Below, one piece after another: positions 4,474 through 11,878 of a stretch of DNA of 64,000 bases. Numbering within the stretch: position 1 is the first letter of the stretch; each line of letters begins with the position of its first letter. Made by a program: the position numbers and the translations under genes. The notes below the pieces were generated by a model. That model did no database searches and had not been told where the DNA came from. It saw only the letters and a list, made by a program, of their open reading frames with translations. Origin of the DNA: Ruminococcus sp. (GTDB taxonomy: Bacteria; Bacillota; Clostridia; Oscillospirales; Ruminococcaceae); assembly GCA_021205185.1 (NCBI GenBank), contig JAJPYB010000009.1, positions 62,001 through 126,000 on the forward strand. Reading direction: 5' to 3'.

Positions 4474-4485
4474 ATCTTGATAGCA

Positions 4486-4520
4486 AGAAAGGGCAGCTTA
4501 ACCAGTTGCCCTTTCTTTAT
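4486..4520. terminator. Bidirectional terminator between rarA and the magnesium operon
   Basis: A 10-bp perfect stem, AGAAAGGGCA / TGCCCTTTCT, with an 11-nt loop and T-rich flanks on both strands lies between the convergent stop codons of rarA (+) and the 47-aa membrane protein gene (-). Confidence 0.85.
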
Positions 4521-4536
4521 CTTTAGCAAATTTTAA

Positions 4537-4680
4537 TTACTTTCTCTTTGGCTTCATTCCCCAGAAAACAGCATTCATAAGAATGACAATCACTGCAACA
4601 ACAATCATGGATACCCAAAAGCCAATGTTCAATCCAAAAATCTGAGCATTGCCGAGAAGCTTCGTTATAATATTTGTCAT
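4537..4680 (-). CDS. 47-aa single-pass membrane protein downstream of mgtA1 (unnamed)
   Basis: This ORF is below the ORF-track cutoff; the track's 66-aa ORF here is another frame. It reads MTNIITKLLGNAQIFGLNIG..., followed by a hydrophobic helix (about residues 18-40, 'FWVSMIVVAVIVILMNAVF') and a basic tail ending GMKPKRK. The start has a near-perfect ribosome-binding site, AAGGAGGTAATTATT-ATG, and the ORF begins 14 nt after the mgtA1 stop and ends just before the operon terminator. I recognise no family. Its position suggests a small subunit or regulator of MgtA1, by analogy with the unrelated small proteins MgtS and MgtR of enterobacteria; that is inference. Confidence 0.72.
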   Translation of the reverse strand: MTNIITKLLGNAQIFGLNIGFWVSMIVVAVIVILMNAVFWGMKPKRK

Positions 4681-4694
4681 AATAATTACCTCCT

Positions 4695-7460
4695 TTATAA
4701 CAACTCACCATAATGGCGAACATAAGCTTTCTTCAAGCTGGTGGCCAGCAGCATATATAAAAGTATGCAAGGAATCAAATAGAGAAAATAGCTTGCAGGT
4801 AGTGCAACAAATCCCAGTAAAGTGCCAAATGTGGTAAATGGAATGATAGTAAGTACTGTAATTCCAGTCAACGTCATCAATGTCAAAGGTGCAGAAGCAT
4901 GACTTTGAATAAACGGTAGTTTTGGCGTACGTATCATATGGATAACAAGCGTTTGACTCCACATCGATTCAACGAACCAGCCTGCTTGGAACATTGCCAT
5001 ATATTTAAATTGCATTTCTGCAAGCTCAACACCGCTAAAATGTGTAGCCAAATCATTATATAACACGCCGCCTGATACATACATCGGGCAAAATACAAAA
5101 TACATAAATATGTAGGTTGTAAAATCAAAAATGGAACTTGTAGGTCCGATCCAAATCATAAAGCTGCCAACGCTTGAAGCATCCCACTTTCTAGGCATCG
5201 CAATAAATTCTTTGTCTACATTGTCCCACGGAATAGCTGTACAGCTCAAATCGTATATCAAATTCAAGAAAATCAAATGTACGCTCATCATTGGTAAGAA
5301 TGGTAGTAGAGCAGATGCAGCAAGAACAGAAAACATATTTCCAAAGTTTGATGACGCTGTCATTTTGATATATTTAATCATATTCGCATAAGTCTTTCGT
5401 CCTTCAATAATTCCTTGTTCTAAAACCATAAGGTCTTTTTCCAGCAGAATTATATCCGCAGATTCCTTTGCTACGTCAACTGCTGTATCAACTGAAATTC
5501 CAATATCAGCCGCTTTCATTGCAGCGGCGTCGTTTATTCCGTCGCCCATAAATCCGACAGTATGACCGCTTTCTCTAAGAACCGATACAATTCTAGCCTT
5601 TTGGTCGGGCGTCAGTTTTGCAAATACGTCTGTTTTTTCAGCAGCTTTTGCAAGCTCTTTGTCTGTCATATGCTCTAAATCAGAGCCTAAGAGCATATTG
5701 CGAACCTTGAGCCCTACCTGAGCGCAAATAGTACGAGTTACCTTATCGTTGTCACCGGTAAGAATTTTTGTGCGAACGCCATGATCAGCTAAAGCTTGAA
5801 TAGCGTCAGCGGTAGATTCCTTTGGCGGATCTAGAAATGCAAGATAGCCGATCAGCACCATATCTATTTCGTCTTTGATGCTAAAAATTCCAACAGACGA
5901 CGGATTTGTTTTATGTGCAATGCACAAAACTCGGAAGCCCTTTTCATTTAGGTCGTCCGCTGTTTGTAAAATTCTTCCACGAACCTCAGCTGTAAGCGGC
6001 TTAACTTCGCCGTTAACATCTGCATACGAGCAAACTGAAAGCATTTCCTCTACGGCGCCCTTTGTAATCATTTGTGTTTTACCAGTTTTATCCTGTACAA
6101 CAGTGGTAAGGCGGCGGCGCTCAAAGTCAAATGGAATTTCATCAACCTTTACATAATGCTCTGACAAATCCGTTAGCTGAGGATTTTCTTGCTCTTCCTC
6201 TTCTGTTTTTTGAATGATTGCTAAGTCCATCAGGTTTTTATATCCTGTTTGAAAATAGCTGTTTAAATATGCGTGTCTTAAAACTCTGCTGTCCTCTTTG
6301 CCGTCTACGTTCAAATGATATTCCAAAACGACCTTGTCTTGTGTAAGCGTACCTGTTTTGTCTGTGCAGAGTATATCAATCGCGCCAAAATTCTGAATTG
6401 AATTTAAATTCTTTACAATCGTCTGCTTTTTGCTCATTGATACTGCGCCTTTTGCAAGACAGGTTGTAACAATCATCGGCAGCATTTCAGGCGTCAATCC
6501 TACAGCAATTGATATTGCAAACAAAAATGCAGACAGCCAGTCGCCCTTGGTTATACCGTTTATTACAAATACAAGCGGTACCATAATCATCATAAACCTT
6601 ATGAGCACCCAAGAAACGGCGTTGACGCCCTTTGTAAAGCTTGTTTCAACAGCATCACCTGCTACAGCTGATGCCATAGAACCAAATAACGTATTATCGC
6701 CGACGCAGACTGCGACTGCGGTAGCGCTTCCTGATATAACATTACTGCCCATAAAAGCAATATTTGAATACTCGGTTACGTTGTCTGTCTTTTCAGTAGC
6801 ATTCGGCGTTTTTTCAATCGGTTCACTTTCACCAGTAAGGCTTGCTTGACTGACAAATAAATCCTTTGCTTCTAAAATACGAACATCAGCGGGAATCATA
6901 TCCCCAGCTGACAGATGTATAATATCTCCGACAACTACTTCATCTAGTGGTATTTCAGACATTGAAGCTTCTCTTCTGGTTACGGTACAGGTAGTTGTTA
7001 TCATTTCAAGAAGCCTTTCTGCAGCATTACCGCTTCTTGATTCCTGAACAAATCTGAGCGTTCCTGAAATCACAACCATTGTGAGGATAATAACAACTGT
7101 TAAGCAATCAAAATCTTCAGGCACACAACCGAAAAGGGAAAAGTACGGAAAAATCATATCTGTTATTGTTGAAACAACAGCCAAGCAAAATAGGATTGCT
7201 GTAAACGGATTGATAAAGGCACCAGCTAAACGCTGTGGTAGTGACTTTTTCTTTTCTCTCGTTACTTTGTTTGAACCGTTTATAGATCTGCTTTCTTCAA
7301 CTTGATCTTCGTCTAATCCTGTAAGCTTTGTATTTAGCTTCGACAAAACCGCTGACGTGGGATTGGTTGCCGCAAAATTCAGACGATTGTTTTGCTCATC
7401 ACGTATAATAGCCTTTTGCGTCATTTTGTGTAAATTCTGTCTTGATAGTTTCTTGTTCAT
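4695..7460 (-). CDS. mgtA: Magnesium-translocating P-type ATPase (type IIIB), copy 1
   Basis: A ~921-aa inner-membrane ATPase that imports Mg2+ using ATP. It has the phosphorylation motif DKTGTLT, the A-domain 'SLTGES' loop, the hinge '[20 protein letters not shown]', and about ten membrane segments split 2+2+6. The N-terminal tail is basic and hydrophilic. The track starts five codons early (MEVSP...); I prefer the ATG of MNKKLSRQ because the first codons are themselves the ribosome-binding site (GGAGGT, 8 nt before the ATG). It is the fourth ORF of the mgtC-DUF3784-leader-mgtA1-small protein operon and is preceded by a structured leader with a 29-codon ORF. A second, divergent copy lies at 9.2-11.9 kb. 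Confidence 0.95.
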
Positions 7461-7575
7461 TGGACTTACCTCCATTTCTAATTATTTAGTAAAGGATAAG
7501 CTTATCACATAGTTGGACATAATACTCCAAAGGCTGTGTATGCTTATCTCTTCGTGGACTGCCATCAGAGTCCAT
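7449..7575 (-). promoter_or_regulatory. Structured mRNA leader of mgtA1
   Basis: On the minus strand, TGGACT/AGTCCA forms a 6-bp hairpin over the leader-ORF start (7555-7574). GATAAGC/GCTTATC, CACA/TGTG and TTGGA/TCCAA nest into one imperfect hairpin (7495-7548). The mgtA1 start region AAGTCCAATG is a third copy of the 'GTCCA' arm and can pair with CATGGACT at the leader-ORF start (8 bp, one bulge), so the pairings compete. It does not look like a known M-box (ykoK) riboswitch. Structures were found by eye. Confidence 0.5.
7486..7575 (-). CDS. 29-codon leader ORF upstream of mgtA1 (MgtL-like candidate)
   Basis: A short ORF reads MDSDGSPRRDKHTQPLEYYV..., ending 25 nt before the mgtA1 start. 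It has a strong ribosome-binding site, GGAGGTGAAGGGC-ATG. Its first residues (acidic, Asp, then Pro and Arg-Arg) resemble the composition of enterobacterial MgtL (acidic and proline-rich, then basic), the leader whose translation controls mgtA; there is no meaningful alignment, so this is analogy. The RNA of the ORF can form hairpins, and its start region can pair with the mgtA1 start region. It could instead be a chance ORF inside a structured leader. No homologue search was possible. Confidence 0.55.
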   Translation of the reverse strand: MDSDGSPRRDKHTQPLEYYVQLCDKLILY

Positions 7576-7624
7576 GCCCTTCACCTCCATGCGTGTAAAA
7601 TATCTATGAAAACTGCAATGCAGA

Positions 7625-7936
7625 TTATTGGTTGCTATAACGGTTGCTTTTAGAAATGTAAAACACGTCTATTCCTGCTACTATAATCCATAAAATTATA
7701 GCAACTGTAAACATATGGTCGGAAAACCTAGTGCAAAAGCCTTTTACAACAAAGATAATTCCATTGAGAGTTATCATCGCACCAATATTTTTGCAAAGCG
7801 GTGCTATTTTTATCTTTTTCTTTTCCTCATCAGGCATTATTTTCCACAAGGATAGGTGCTTGTATATTTTCCCAAAGGCAAATATTATACCGCCAATAAC
7901 AAAAAGCATTCCTAAAAATATGCATACATAATCCAT
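7625..7936 (-). CDS. DUF3784-like small membrane protein
   Basis: A 103-aa protein with three hydrophobic segments (about residues 3-22, 50-67 and 74-93), resembling the DUF3784 family of small Firmicutes membrane proteins. The middle of the protein is charged ('MPDEEKKKIKIAP'). It begins 19 nt after the mgtC stop with the ribosome-binding site AGGGAG, and lies directly upstream of the mgtA1 leader, so it is co-transcribed with the magnesium genes. Function is unknown; membership in this operon suggests a link to Mg2+ stress or membrane homeostasis. The family call is tentative because it rests on overall pattern rather than a motif. Confidence 0.65.
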   Translation of the reverse strand: MDYVCIFLGMLFVIGGIIFAFGKIYKHLSLWKIMPDEEKKKIKIAPLCKNIGAMITLNGIIFVVKGFCTRFSDHMFTVAIILWIIVAGIDVFYISKSNRYSNQ

Positions 7937-7955
7937 TTAACTTGCTCCCTTCAAA

Positions 7956-8633
7956 TTACAGAACCTCCCAACCGGCGCTGATTACTTCAGCACGAGTTAG
8001 TATTTGACCGACGATTCCTTCCAGCACTCGGTTTTTAGGCTTCCCAGCAGAATCATATTCAGCAATAATCTCTACTTTATCGCCTACAACATCTCCGCTT
8101 TCTAAATTTGTTAGATAAAGCGTTTTGCACGAATTGCTGTTAATCAGTAGCATTCTAAGGTCGTGCTCTGCTTTTTCGTGACAGGTTACTGAAATACGGT
8201 ATCTTTTTTCAGATTCCTCCTCGATAGTGATTGGATTGATTTTTCTAGCTAACGGTCTAAGCGCCAGATTAGATATTATCAAAATTGTAGCTGCAATTAT
8301 AGCCAGAATGTATATTCCTGAGCTTGCAAGCACACCGATTGCAGCAGTACACCAAAGAGTTGCTGCCGTATTTATTCCGCGAACTGAGGCGCTTTCTTTA
8401 AATATTACGCCGCTGCATAAAAAGCCAACGCCCTGAATAATAGCCGCTGCGACACGAAATGTCTGTTCTGATTCAAAAGCCAAAGGAAACAATGTAAAAA
8501 ATGCGGATCCCATACAAATTAGTACGTTGATTCTAATTCCCGCTGTATGCCCTGTCAGCTGACGTTCAAGTCCTATTGCAAAGCCCAGTACCAACGAAAG
8601 GGCGATTCTTAAAGCAAAATCTGTGTATTCCAT
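7956..8633 (-). CDS. mgtC: MgtC/SapB family membrane protein
   Basis: A 225-aa protein with the MgtC N-terminal transmembrane domain (four to five segments in residues 1-125, including 'GFAIGLERQLTGHTAGIRIN' and 'GVGFLCSGVIFKE', both hallmark stretches) followed by a soluble C-terminal domain of ~85 residues with an ACT-like pattern. MgtC proteins support growth at low Mg2+ and, in Salmonella, inhibit the F-type ATPase; they are not themselves transporters. It is the first gene of the mgtC-DUF3784-mgtA1 operon, with a -10 box 20 nt upstream. GAGGTG lies before the ATG. Confidence 0.92.
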   Translation of the reverse strand: MEYTDFALRIALSLVLGFAIGLERQLTGHTAGIRINVLICMGSAFFTLFPLAFESEQTFRVAAAIIQGVGFLCSGVIFKESASVRGINTAATLWCTAAIGVLASSGIYILAIIAATILIISNLALRPLARKINPITIEEESEKRYRISVTCHEKAEHDLRMLLINSNSCKTLYLTNLESGDVVGDKVEIIAEYDSAGKPKNRVLEGIVGQILTRAEVISAGWEVL

Positions 8634-8653
8634 TTCAGCACCTCTCTGTTTTT

Positions 8654-8682
8654 ATTATACAAAAAACGCAAGAAAATTCACA
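8654..8682 (-). promoter_or_regulatory. Candidate promoter for mgtC operon
   Basis: Minus strand: TGTGAA, 17 bp, perfect TATAAT, ~20 nt before the mgtC ATG. The -35 box is poor, so an activator may be needed. It overlaps the stem-loop after the regulator gene. Confidence 0.5.
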
Positions 8683-8713
8683 GGTTTAAAACCTTGCGAT
8701 TTCCTTGCGTTTT
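8663..8713 (-). terminator. Stem-loop terminator after the winged-helix regulator
   Basis: A 10-bp outer stem AAAACGCAAG / CTTGCGTTTT encloses a second small IR (AGGTTTTAAACCT) and is followed on the minus strand by TTTTTTG. It separates the mgtA2-regulator transcript from mgtC. The loop is long, so partial readthrough is plausible. Confidence 0.55.
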
Positions 8714-8733
8714 AGCAAGAATTTTTGATTGCC

Positions 8734-9228
8734 TTAAAGCTTGTCATTGAATTTGTATCCAATACCCCAAATGGTCAGTATGTATTCCGGAGCGTCAGGG
8801 TGAGGTTCAATTTTCTTTCTAAGCTTTCGTATAAAAGCCATGATGTTACTGTCGTCCATCAGGTACTCAGCATCCCATACTGCTTGATAAATTTGCTCCT
8901 TTGTAAAAACCTCGCCGCGATTTCTCGCCAGAAATAACAATATGTCAAACTCCTTTGGCGTTAAAATGATTTCATCCCGTCCTCTGATTACCTTTCTGGC
9001 AATAGGAAGTATATGTAAATCTCCGCAAATGATTTCTGAAAAATCGGGAATGGGTATAGCGTCGCCCAGTTCTAGCAGTATGCTTCTGATTTCGCCGTCC
9101 TTTAAAGCTGATATTGCGTCCTGCAATTCTTTGGCGCTTAGTATATCTGCTGGAGCAGCCTTTAACTTTTCGTTTAGCCAGTTCAGCGCTAAAGCGTCTA
9201 AGCTGACAAAGCCAATGTTGTTTTTCAT
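8734..9228 (-). CDS. OmpR/PhoB-type winged-helix regulator lacking a receiver domain
   Basis: A 164-aa protein. Residues ~68-164 are a clear OmpR-family C-terminal DNA-binding domain: 'RDEIILTPKEFDILLFLARNRGEVFTKEQIYQAVW', the recognition-helix region 'SNIMAFIRKLRKKI' and the wing 'ILTIWGIGYKF'. The N-terminal ~65 residues are not a normal CheY receiver: they are half length and I see no phospho-acceptor Asp pattern. It starts 10 nt after the mgtA2 stop with GGAGG upstream, so it is co-transcribed with mgtA2 and lies just upstream of mgtC. It is a good candidate for local regulator of both magnesium operons, sensing by some other route than phosphorylation; that is inference. Confidence 0.85.
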   Translation of the reverse strand: MKNNIGFVSLDALALNWLNEKLKAAPADILSAKELQDAISALKDGEIRSILLELGDAIPIPDFSEIICGDLHILPIARKVIRGRDEIILTPKEFDILLFLARNRGEVFTKEQIYQAVWDAEYLMDDSNIMAFIRKLRKKIEPHPDAPEYILTIWGIGYKFNDKL

Positions 9229-9238
9229 GCTACACCTC

Positions 9239-11878
9239 CTACAGTAGTTCCTTGTGCTTTTTAAAGTAAATATGCTTTGCTACGCTTACAAGGCCAAGAT
9301 AGCAGAGTACGTCTAACATCAAAAATAGATAATATCCAATCGGAAGAGCCGTTAAATTCATATAATGTCCAATCGGAGTGACTGTGATAATTGAAAACAG
9401 AGCAATGCCTACTAGAGTAACTACTAAAACAAGCTTTGACGGTTTGCTTTGAGCAAACGGTATTTTACTTGTCCGCAATAGATGAAGGATTAAAACCTGC
9501 GTCCACATTGATTCTAAAAACCAGCCCGTCTGAAAGGTCGTTACAAACGTCAGCTGCCCGACAGAGTCGAGCTGTGAAAACGCACCGCCGCATACGGCAG
9601 GGCAGAGGACAAAGAATAAAAACGCAAACGTCAGTATATCAAACACCGAGCTAATTGGCCCGAATCGGAGCATAAATTTCCCTAAATTTTTACCGTTCCA
9701 ACGAACTGGTTTTTCAAGCTGTTCGGAGTCGACGTTATCCCATGGCAAAATCAAGCAAAGAATATCGTACAGCAAATTCAAGAGGAGGAGCTGAAGGGAA
9801 GTCATTGGGAAAAATGGTAGAAGAATACTCGCAACAACCACGGCGAAGATATTTCCTAAATTTGAAGAAGCGGTGATTTTAATATATTTTGTCATATTGA
9901 CAAACGCTTTTCGTCCTTCTAAAATGCTACGTCTTAATACATTTAAGTCTTTCTTTAGCAGAATTACATCTGCACTTTCCTTTACTGCGTCTGCAGCCGT
10001 GTCTACTGAAATCCCAACATTCGCCTTAAGCTCAGCAGGAAGATCGTTCATTCCGTCGCCCACAAATCCAACTGTGTGACCGTTGGATTGTAGAATCTCA
10101 ATAATTTGAGCCTTTTGTTTTGGTGAAAGCTCGGCAAATACCTTCGTGTTTTCTATAGCTATTGGGATGTCATTTTCTGAAAGAGCATCAAAACCGGCTC
10201 CTGTTAATACGGATTTTGTATCGATTCCAAGGCGTGAGCAAACTGACAGGGTGGTTTTCATGTCATCTCCTGTTAAAACTCTGACGTCAACTTTTAATTC
10301 CTTCAAGCTTTTTATTGTTTCAGCGGCGCTTTTTTTAGGTGCATCAAAAAACGCAAGATAGCCGATTAGTACAAAATCTGAATTATCATTGCTAAGCACC
10401 GCTTCATTTGTATTTCTATAAGCTACTGCAAGTACCTTCATCCCGTCTTCGGTAAGGTCGTCTGTGACTGCGTGAACGCTTTTTAGTGTGTCGTTGTTTA
10501 CAGATATTTTTTCACCTTTAAATTCTGCGTACTTACACTTTGACAGTACGCTTTCAACGCTCCCTTTTATGATATGTAAATTATCTTTTTCACCTTTTAG
10601 TAAAACTCCGACATATTTGTGATCATAATCAAACGGCTGCTCATCCAAGAGAACGCTATCATTCAAAAGTGTCTGAAATCGTTCTCTTTCATTTGGAATA
10701 TCGCCATATTTCAGTATTGCTGTGTCGAGGTGATTTTTAACGCCGCTATGGTAGTGACTGTTTAAAAATGCATAGTTTAAAACCGTCTGACTTTCATTGC
10801 CAAGAATATCCATATAGTATTCAAGCATAATTGTGTCCTCGGTTAATGTTCCTGTCTTATCAACGCACAGCACGTCCATACCGCCAAGCGTCTGCATAGC
10901 GTTTATGTTTTTTACTACCGTTTGTTCCTTGCCCATTTGATGAGCGCCCTTTGCCATACAAGCGCTTACAACCATTGGTAGCATTTCAGGCGTAAGTCCC
11001 ACCGCTACAGAAAGGGCAAACAAAAATGCTTCTAACCAATTGTGCTGAGTTAGTCCGCTTGCTACAAACACAACAGGCAACAAAATCACCATAAATCGTA
11101 TTAAGACCCATGCAATTGAACCCGAACCGTTGTCAAAGCCTTGCTTTTGATCAAGCCGTTCGGTATCCAAGCCGCCGTAAAATGTGTTTACTCCGACTGC
11201 TTGTACTACGCCAATGCCAACACCGCCTGTAACAGAAGTTCCTTGAAAGACGATGTTTGTGTAATCGCTAAGCTTTTGCGGCTTGCCCTGCGGCTTTACA
11301 GGACTTTTTTCAAAGCTTTCGCTCTCACCAGTTATTACTGATTGCGAAACGAACAAATCTCTTGCTTCTGTGAGTTCAATATCCGCAGGTATGCGATCTC
11401 CGGCTTCTATGCGAACTAAGTCGCCAACTACCAGATCCTCAGAGGAAATTTCCTGCCAGATGCTATCTCTGCAAACGGATACAGTCGTTTCAGTCAGGCT
11501 TGCCAGCCTGTCAGCAACACGCTTTGCTCGCAGCTCCTGAATCAGACGAACAATTCCGCCAAGCAAAAGCATTATACAGATGATAATAACAGAAGAGAAG
11601 CTTTGACCGTATTTGTTTGGTGAAAGCACGTCAGTAATCAGCGAAACTACTGCCAGTACAAATAAAATAATTGAAAAGGGGTTTATAAACGCTCTGCGAA
11701 TGCTTTTAATAGCCGATGTTTGGCTTTTGTTTATTTGTTTGTTGCTTCCATATTTTTTTCTGCTTTCATAAATCTGCTCTCCATTTAAGCCGGTTTTACC
11801 ACCGCTATTATTAAGCTCTTTGCCGTCAATATGAATAAACGAATTTTTTGTTTGCCGATGATGAACAGTGTCCTTCAT
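9239..11878 (-). CDS. mgtA: Magnesium-translocating P-type ATPase (type IIIB), copy 2
   Basis: An 879-aa paralogue of the 4.7-7.5 kb ATPase. It has the phosphorylation motif DKTGTLT, the 'ITGESESFEKSP' A-domain loop, 'GDGMNDLPAELKANVGISVD' in the hinge, and the MgtA-type C-terminal membrane block ('LLYDILCLILPWDNVD'). In the hinge motif copy 1 has the usual NDAAAMK, whereas this copy has NDLPAELK, a divergent stretch beside a normally conserved site. It is the promoter-proximal gene of the mgtA2-regulator transcript; AGGAGG lies 7-8 nt before the ATG. Transport of Mg2+ is inferred from family; Ni2+ or Co2+ uptake is also known for MgtA proteins. Confidence 0.93.
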   Translation of the reverse strand: MKDTVHHRQTKNSFIHIDGKELNNSGGKTGLNGEQIYESRKKYGSNKQINKSQTSAIKSIRRAFINPFSIILFVLAVVSLITDVLSPNKYGQSFSSVIIICIMLLLGGIVRLIQELRAKRVADRLASLTETTVSVCRDSIWQEISSEDLVVGDLVRIEAGDRIPADIELTEARDLFVSQSVITGESESFEKSPVKPQGKPQKLSDYTNIVFQGTSVTGGVGIGVVQAVGVNTFYGGLDTERLDQKQGFDNGSGSIAWVLIRFMVILLPVVFVASGLTQHNWLEAFLFALSVAVGLTPEMLPMVVSACMAKGAHQMGKEQTVVKNINAMQTLGGMDVLCVDKTGTLTEDTIMLEYYMDILGNESQTVLNYAFLNSHYHSGVKNHLDTAILKYGDIPNERERFQTLLNDSVLLDEQPFDYDHKYVGVLLKGEKDNLHIIKGSVESVLSKCKYAEFKGEKISVNNDTLKSVHAVTDDLTEDGMKVLAVAYRNTNEAVLSNDNSDFVLIGYLAFFDAPKKSAAETIKSLKELKVDVRVLTGDDMKTTLSVCSRLGIDTKSVLTGAGFDALSENDIPIAIENTKVFAELSPKQKAQIIEILQSNGHTVGFVGDGMNDLPAELKANVGISVDTAADAVKESADVILLKKDLNVLRRSILEGRKAFVNMTKYIKITASSNLGNIFAVVVASILLPFFPMTSLQLLLLNLLYDILCLILPWDNVDSEQLEKPVRWNGKNLGKFMLRFGPISSVFDILTFAFLFFVLCPAVCGGAFSQLDSVGQLTFVTTFQTGWFLESMWTQVLILHLLRTSKIPFAQSKPSKLVLVVTLVGIALFSIITVTPIGHYMNLTALPIGYYLFLMLDVLCYLGLVSVAKHIYFKKHKELL

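Follow-up and report, generated by a model that had tools for sequence, protein, structure and literature searches.

Several bacterial P-type ATPases are accompanied by very small membrane proteins. MgtS and MgtU protect MgtA/MgtB from degradation by FtsH (PMC10710835), and KdpF stabilises KdpABC (PMC10925321). The paper on the first cryo-EM structure of MgtA raises two questions, in what way small proteins act on P-type ATPases and whether further pumps of this kind have such partners (PMC10925321). MgtS of E. coli (31 aa) binds MgtA and stabilises it and, like the protein described here, is small, crosses the membrane once and is linked to a Mg2+ ATPase of the MgtA type; yet its gene lies away from mgtA, next to ydeE, whereas the small ORF here adjoins mgtA1, and MgtS is shorter with an acidic C-terminus, whereas the protein here has a predicted amphipathic helix at its N-terminus and a basic tail. 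In the Salmonella mgtCBRU operon the genes for MgtR (30 aa) and MgtU (28 aa) also come straight after a Mg2+ P-type ATPase gene, a placement found here in all 78 evaluable loci. The two operons share further traits, an mgtC gene, often present here, and a short acidic ORF ahead of the pump gene, but MgtR and MgtU belong to another phylum and differ in length and motif from the protein here; the sequence comparison covers MgtR. KdpF (29 aa), from the operon of the K+ P-type ATPase KdpFABC, is likewise a small single-TM protein and stabilises its complex, but it is encoded before the pump genes, serves a different pump class and has no sequence similarity to the protein here. One-helix modulators of P-type ATPases also include sarcolipin, phospholamban and DWORF, which act on SERCA, and FXYD proteins, which act on the Na,K-ATPase, but these are eukaryotic. 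FXYD proteins lie N-out/C-in with a basic tail, like the topology predicted here.

The first-pass annotation had held that the small protein does not resemble MgtS or MgtR, and this stands: against the profile of the family both score like their own shuffles. MgtS reaches 1.5 bits, with 53 of 198 shuffles as good; for MgtR (sequence from PMC6813294) 365 of 500 shuffles are as good, and for KdpF (score 0.1) 136 of 200. The E. coli MgtS and KdpF sequences were read from MG1655. No KdpF chain appears among the PDB matches of the small protein, no homology to SERCA regulators or FXYD is detectable in Pfam and PDB profile searches, and searches of Pfam, NCBIfam and PDB profiles with the small protein reveal no convincing family. 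In the literature, including a text search for motif peptides, no description of the small-protein family was found. Among PDB profiles, yeast V-ATPase subunit e (Vma9) came closest, but the match is weak (E=0.01 over 23 residues) and was taken for a chance or convergent VxxMxVxFWxMxPK motif. Judged by these comparisons, the small protein is alike in kind to MgtS, MgtR and KdpF, yet stands outside their families.

The small gene and its operon

The window (the whole stretch of DNA that was analysed, 64,000 nucleotides) carries the small ORF in a Mg2+ operon with the following features:

4485..4517, no strand assigned: hairpin closing the operon, terminator-like on the plus strand, possibly bidirectional
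4537..4680, minus strand: small ORF, 47-aa single-pass membrane protein (ORF and translation, homologues and synteny, dN/dS, AlphaFold2)
4689..4696, minus strand: Shine-Dalgarno sequence AAAGGAGG, which serves the small ORF and overlaps the stop codon of mgtA1 (sequence; same layout in homologues)
4695..7475, minus strand: mgtA1, Mg2+-translocating P-type ATPase and presumed partner (TIGR01524 and NF011702 far above cut-off), with an SD-supported start at 7460
7486..7575, minus strand: short upstream ORF MDSDGSPRRDKHTQPLEYYVQLCDKLILY (start MDSDGSPRRDKH) just ahead of mgtA1, preceded by an SD of its own
7625..7936, minus strand: DUF3784 membrane protein (PF12650, E=2e-19)
7956..8633, minus strand: MgtC family protein (PF02308 and PF21770)
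8734..9228, minus strand: winged-helix regulator with no receiver domain (PF00486), directly behind mgtA2 in 52/60 loci
9239..11878, minus strand: mgtA2, second Mg2+ P-type ATPase (TIGR01524), with no small ORF of this family behind it

The ORF at 4537-4680 is present after mgtA1 as the first-pass annotation had it, on the minus strand, which that annotation had not given, and its product is MTNIITKLLGNAQIFGLNIGFWVSMIVVAVIVILMNAVFWGMKPKRK, 47 aa. We find that the near-perfect ribosome-binding site attributed to it is an AGGAGG-type Shine-Dalgarno sequence that overlaps the mgtA1 stop codon (4697-4695; RBS TAAAGGAGG; SD core AGGAGG). The small-ORF ATG stands exactly 14 nt past that stop, the distance originally given, and the spacer from SD to ATG is 8 nt. 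The ORF had also been described as ending right before the operon terminator. A strong hairpin (4485-4517, fold z -3.7) does start 20 nt past the end of the ORF, and for the convergent plus-strand gene it is a classical terminator, but its form on the minus strand is imperfect. Given that the minus-strand reading has no clean U-run after the stem, the hairpin is at best a shared bidirectional terminator. The small ORF is a genuine gene.

Further up the operon, the protein encoded at 8734-9228 is possibly its Mg2+-responsive regulator. This winged-helix (Trans_reg_C) protein, encoded on the minus strand, has a conserved N-terminus, MKxNIGFVSLDS..WL.EKL.

An ORF that starts MDSDGSPRR or near that precedes mgtA1 in 30 of 65 loci; the conserved part is confined to the first 9 or so residues, and the N-terminus is acidic and contains Pro. 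The leader RNA before mgtA1 could form several competing helices, including one in which CUUGCCUCU pairs with the mgtA1 RBS GGAGGUAAG. This possible anti-RBS duplex beats the shuffle mean in 26 of 26 tested, by a modest amount (mean z -1.26). In Salmonella, mgtQ lies between mgtC and mgtB, carries Asp2 and Glu5, and frees the mgtB RBS via ribosome destabilisation (PMC8092293). The ORF at 7486-7575 is alike in place and composition, and by this analogy looks like an independent counterpart of mgtQ.

Distribution, selection and linkage to MgtA1

A scan of 84,980 GTDB genomes by pattern plus tblastn yields 104 relatives of the small ORF. The mgtA1 coding sequence lies directly upstream, on the same strand, in 78/78 evaluable loci from the 80 fetched; tblastn settled 76 of these, and for the short contigs L062 and L099 the C-terminal peptide of the pump was used, while L049 and L075, in which the ORF starts too near the contig edge, were left out of the count. 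The gap from mgtA1 to the small ORF is 9-25 nt in nearly all loci, and a strong SD, usually AGGAGG or GGAGG, precedes the ORF in nearly all homologues. In a sample of 199 genomes from the same family, each of 12 matches at E<=2.3e-4 lies directly behind an mgtA1-like gene, the one in G138 being fused to a shortened pump. The hosts belong to Oscillospiraceae, Lachnospiraceae, Peptostreptococcaceae (Intestinibacter bartlettii), Veillonellaceae (Megasphaera) and Erysipelotrichaceae; the copy in one Synergistaceae MAG may reflect transfer or misbinning. Plasmid and phage collections gave no small-ORF match. Within the window's own genus this genome is the one carrier among 15, so the small gene is patchy, and the two congeners checked have no match to mgtA1. 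The Mg2+ operon (window 4485-11878) also seems patchy, which suggests horizontal gain.

The reading frame of the small ORF is under purifying selection. Median pairwise dN/dS is 0.196 over 295 pairs, no pair exceeding 0.52, and differences fall most often in the third codon position (0.27/0.18/0.54 by position). In matched pairs the small ORF has a median of 0.17, whereas the final 150 codons of mgtA1 have 0.057. Homologues downstream of mgtA, which the first-pass annotation had named beforehand as bearing on its proposal together with selection on the frame, are thus found in scores of genomes, related and unrelated, and the frame is conserved at a median dN/dS of 0.17-0.20.

The small ORF is strictly linked to one MgtA clade. 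The MgtA1 clade was delimited by an identity of 74% or more across the final 222 residues; in unbiased samples of 199 genomes from the family and 391 from the class, 20 genomes have this clade, and 15 of these carry the small gene, counting as present the copy in genome G222, which lies 331 nt from mgtA1. The small ORF is absent from all 84 sequences of other MgtA clades, and it is never behind the mgtA2-type pumps in this survey. Intact MgtA1-clade pumps occur without the small ORF in G008, G014, G031 and G450; in G012 the small ORF is absent and the MgtA1 frame is disrupted. Given these four intact pumps, MgtA1 can do without the small protein. The C-termini of 122 MgtA sequences were placed on a maximum-likelihood tree, a quick one with many weak branches; on it the carrier label needs 3 changes versus a shuffled mean of 36, which fits a single gain of the gene followed by a few losses.

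The small protein and its proposed role

AlphaFold2, run with 50 relatives, predicts helices at residues 2-10 and 19-41, the latter at pLDDT 92-93; the single hydrophobic helix first read from the sequence is this second one, and the basic tail was likewise correctly described. Residues 2-10 are predicted to form an amphipathic N-terminal helix, and the hydrophobic moment of this segment is high (0.47). Family members are 47-73 aa long, and the protein here has a single predicted TM helix, in keeping with the class of single-TM accessory subunits of P-type ATPases, proteins of ~30-70 aa. Mean charge is -0.6 on the N side and +2.1 on the C side, and the C side is the more positive in 71 of 77 homologues; by the positive-inside rule, this asymmetry predicts an N-out/C-in topology. 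The protein sequence is conserved down to about 35-50% identity with 4-5 residues invariant, and G16, G20, F21, W22, V32, M35, N36, F39, W40, K43 and P44 are invariant or nearly so. Variation along the TM helix is periodic and leaves one conserved face, a modest effect (permutation p=0.024).

On the side of the pump, residue S913 of MgtA1, where the last TM helix ends, is Ser in 78/78 carriers and in 0/88 non-carriers, and S913 and D808 stand out among the columns that differ in pumps lacking the small gene. The screen of such columns did no better than its control, since diverged carriers gave as many columns; S913 and D808 are therefore not claimed as an interface. An AlphaFold2 model of the MgtA1-small stop-readthrough fusion, built from in-frame loci, failed at pLDDT 40, the alignment being too shallow.

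We favour the reading that the small protein is probably a co-translated accessory subunit of MgtA1, most likely stabilising or activating it. Translated from the end of the mgtA1 message, the peptide would be made in step with the pump and would span the membrane once, with its N-terminus outside and its basic C-terminus inside. The amphipathic N-terminal helix would rest on the outer membrane face, and the helix face formed by F21, M25, V28, V32, M35 and F39 would pack against the transmembrane domain of the pump. Stabilisation or activation could be achieved, for example, by shielding MgtA1 from FtsH-type proteolysis, or alternatively by keeping it in a productive conformation or oligomer. 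We infer the topology, the binding to MgtA1 and the stabilising direction alike, and as to direction the evidence fits an activator and an inhibitor alike. The original proposal of an undescribed MgtA partner is supported by homologues behind mgtA, by purifying selection and by the lack of a curated family, the role as partner being predicted.

The synteny and topology fit equally well an inhibitor or degradation adaptor of MgtA1, similar to MgtR or phospholamban, that would serve as a negative-feedback brake made with the pump. Salmonella MgtR, encoded behind mgtB, indeed promotes FtsH degradation of MgtA/MgtB (PMC10710835), and occasional loss of the small ORF without loss of the pump suits a dispensable brake as well. 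However, the strong SD right behind mgtA1 and the tight co-translation, with no separate control seen, fit a constant subunit better, and the small protein has no sequence similarity to MgtR. We regard a brake as less likely, though it is the main rival of the subunit reading.

A target other than MgtA1 is improbable. The small protein would then target MgtC, DUF3784 or MgtA2, the other membrane proteins of the operon, or something unlinked, and its site behind mgtA1 would merely reflect operon order. There is precedent, as MgtC is a target of MgtR in Salmonella (PMC6813294) and PitA is a further target of MgtS in E. coli (PMC10710835), and the typical order, mgtA2-regulator-(mgtC)-(DUF3784)-mgtA1-small, is widely shared, mgtA2 and the regulator standing beside mgtA1 in 52 of the 60 loci with enough flank. 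Yet mgtC occurs in about a third of these 60 loci, and in well over half of them it is not found in the 6 kb upstream, although the small ORF is there; loci with no mgtC or mgtA2 close by still have the small ORF; in 7 of the 60 it is kept behind an mgtA1 that stands alone; it stays with a lone mgtA1 in G222; and behind mgtA2-type pumps it is never seen. Because mgtC is missing from many loci and the constant neighbour is MgtA1, the gene order points to MgtA1, not MgtC, as the likely partner. That the small ORF is a chance ORF or an untranslated RNA-level element, for which its mere 47 codons might speak, is effectively refuted by selection on the frame (dN/dS about 0.2), alongside the conserved protein sequence with its invariant residues and the strong SD of nearly all homologues.

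Returning to the accessory subunit, we advance tentatively a wider claim that may well prove too broad: that MgtA1 pumps of anaerobic Firmicutes would be two-subunit enzymes with a dedicated, FXYD-like N-out/C-in regulatory subunit that arose independently of MgtS, MgtR, MgtU and KdpF, and that the operon would re-create in another phylum the Salmonella mgtC-mgtQ-mgtB-mgtR layout, with an acidic ribosome-destabilising uORF before the pump and a membrane peptide after it. The family, which has no detectable homology to known regulators, answers by genomic evidence the question whether more pumps have small proteins, in a large set of gut Clostridia and their relatives, outside the enterobacteria. 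It offers structural work about 100 putative pump-partner pairs, with natural losses as comparisons; among the hosts are cultured species such as Blautia wexlerae and Intestinibacter bartlettii.

Broken pumps and stray matches

At two loci the upstream mgtA1 is truncated or internally deleted and the small ORF is retained. In L012 (G138 C28, 745-1605) the ORF is in frame, fused with the pump remnant; the other case is L081 (4623-5557). Both broken pumps may represent a pseudogene or an assembly collapse. Weak profile matches in G480, G583, G015 and G447 were examined and look like chance, and one in G546 (L148 1516-1665) was set aside as a decayed-looking orphan copy with no mgtA nearby. A 62-aa TM ORF of G104 scores marginally against the profile, where 1 of 176 shuffles does equally well, and was kept out of the family because no relatives were found in 60 related genomes searched. 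This different one-helix ORF (L131 2182-2370) lies right behind a distant MgtA (46% identity) and may be an analogous pump partner.
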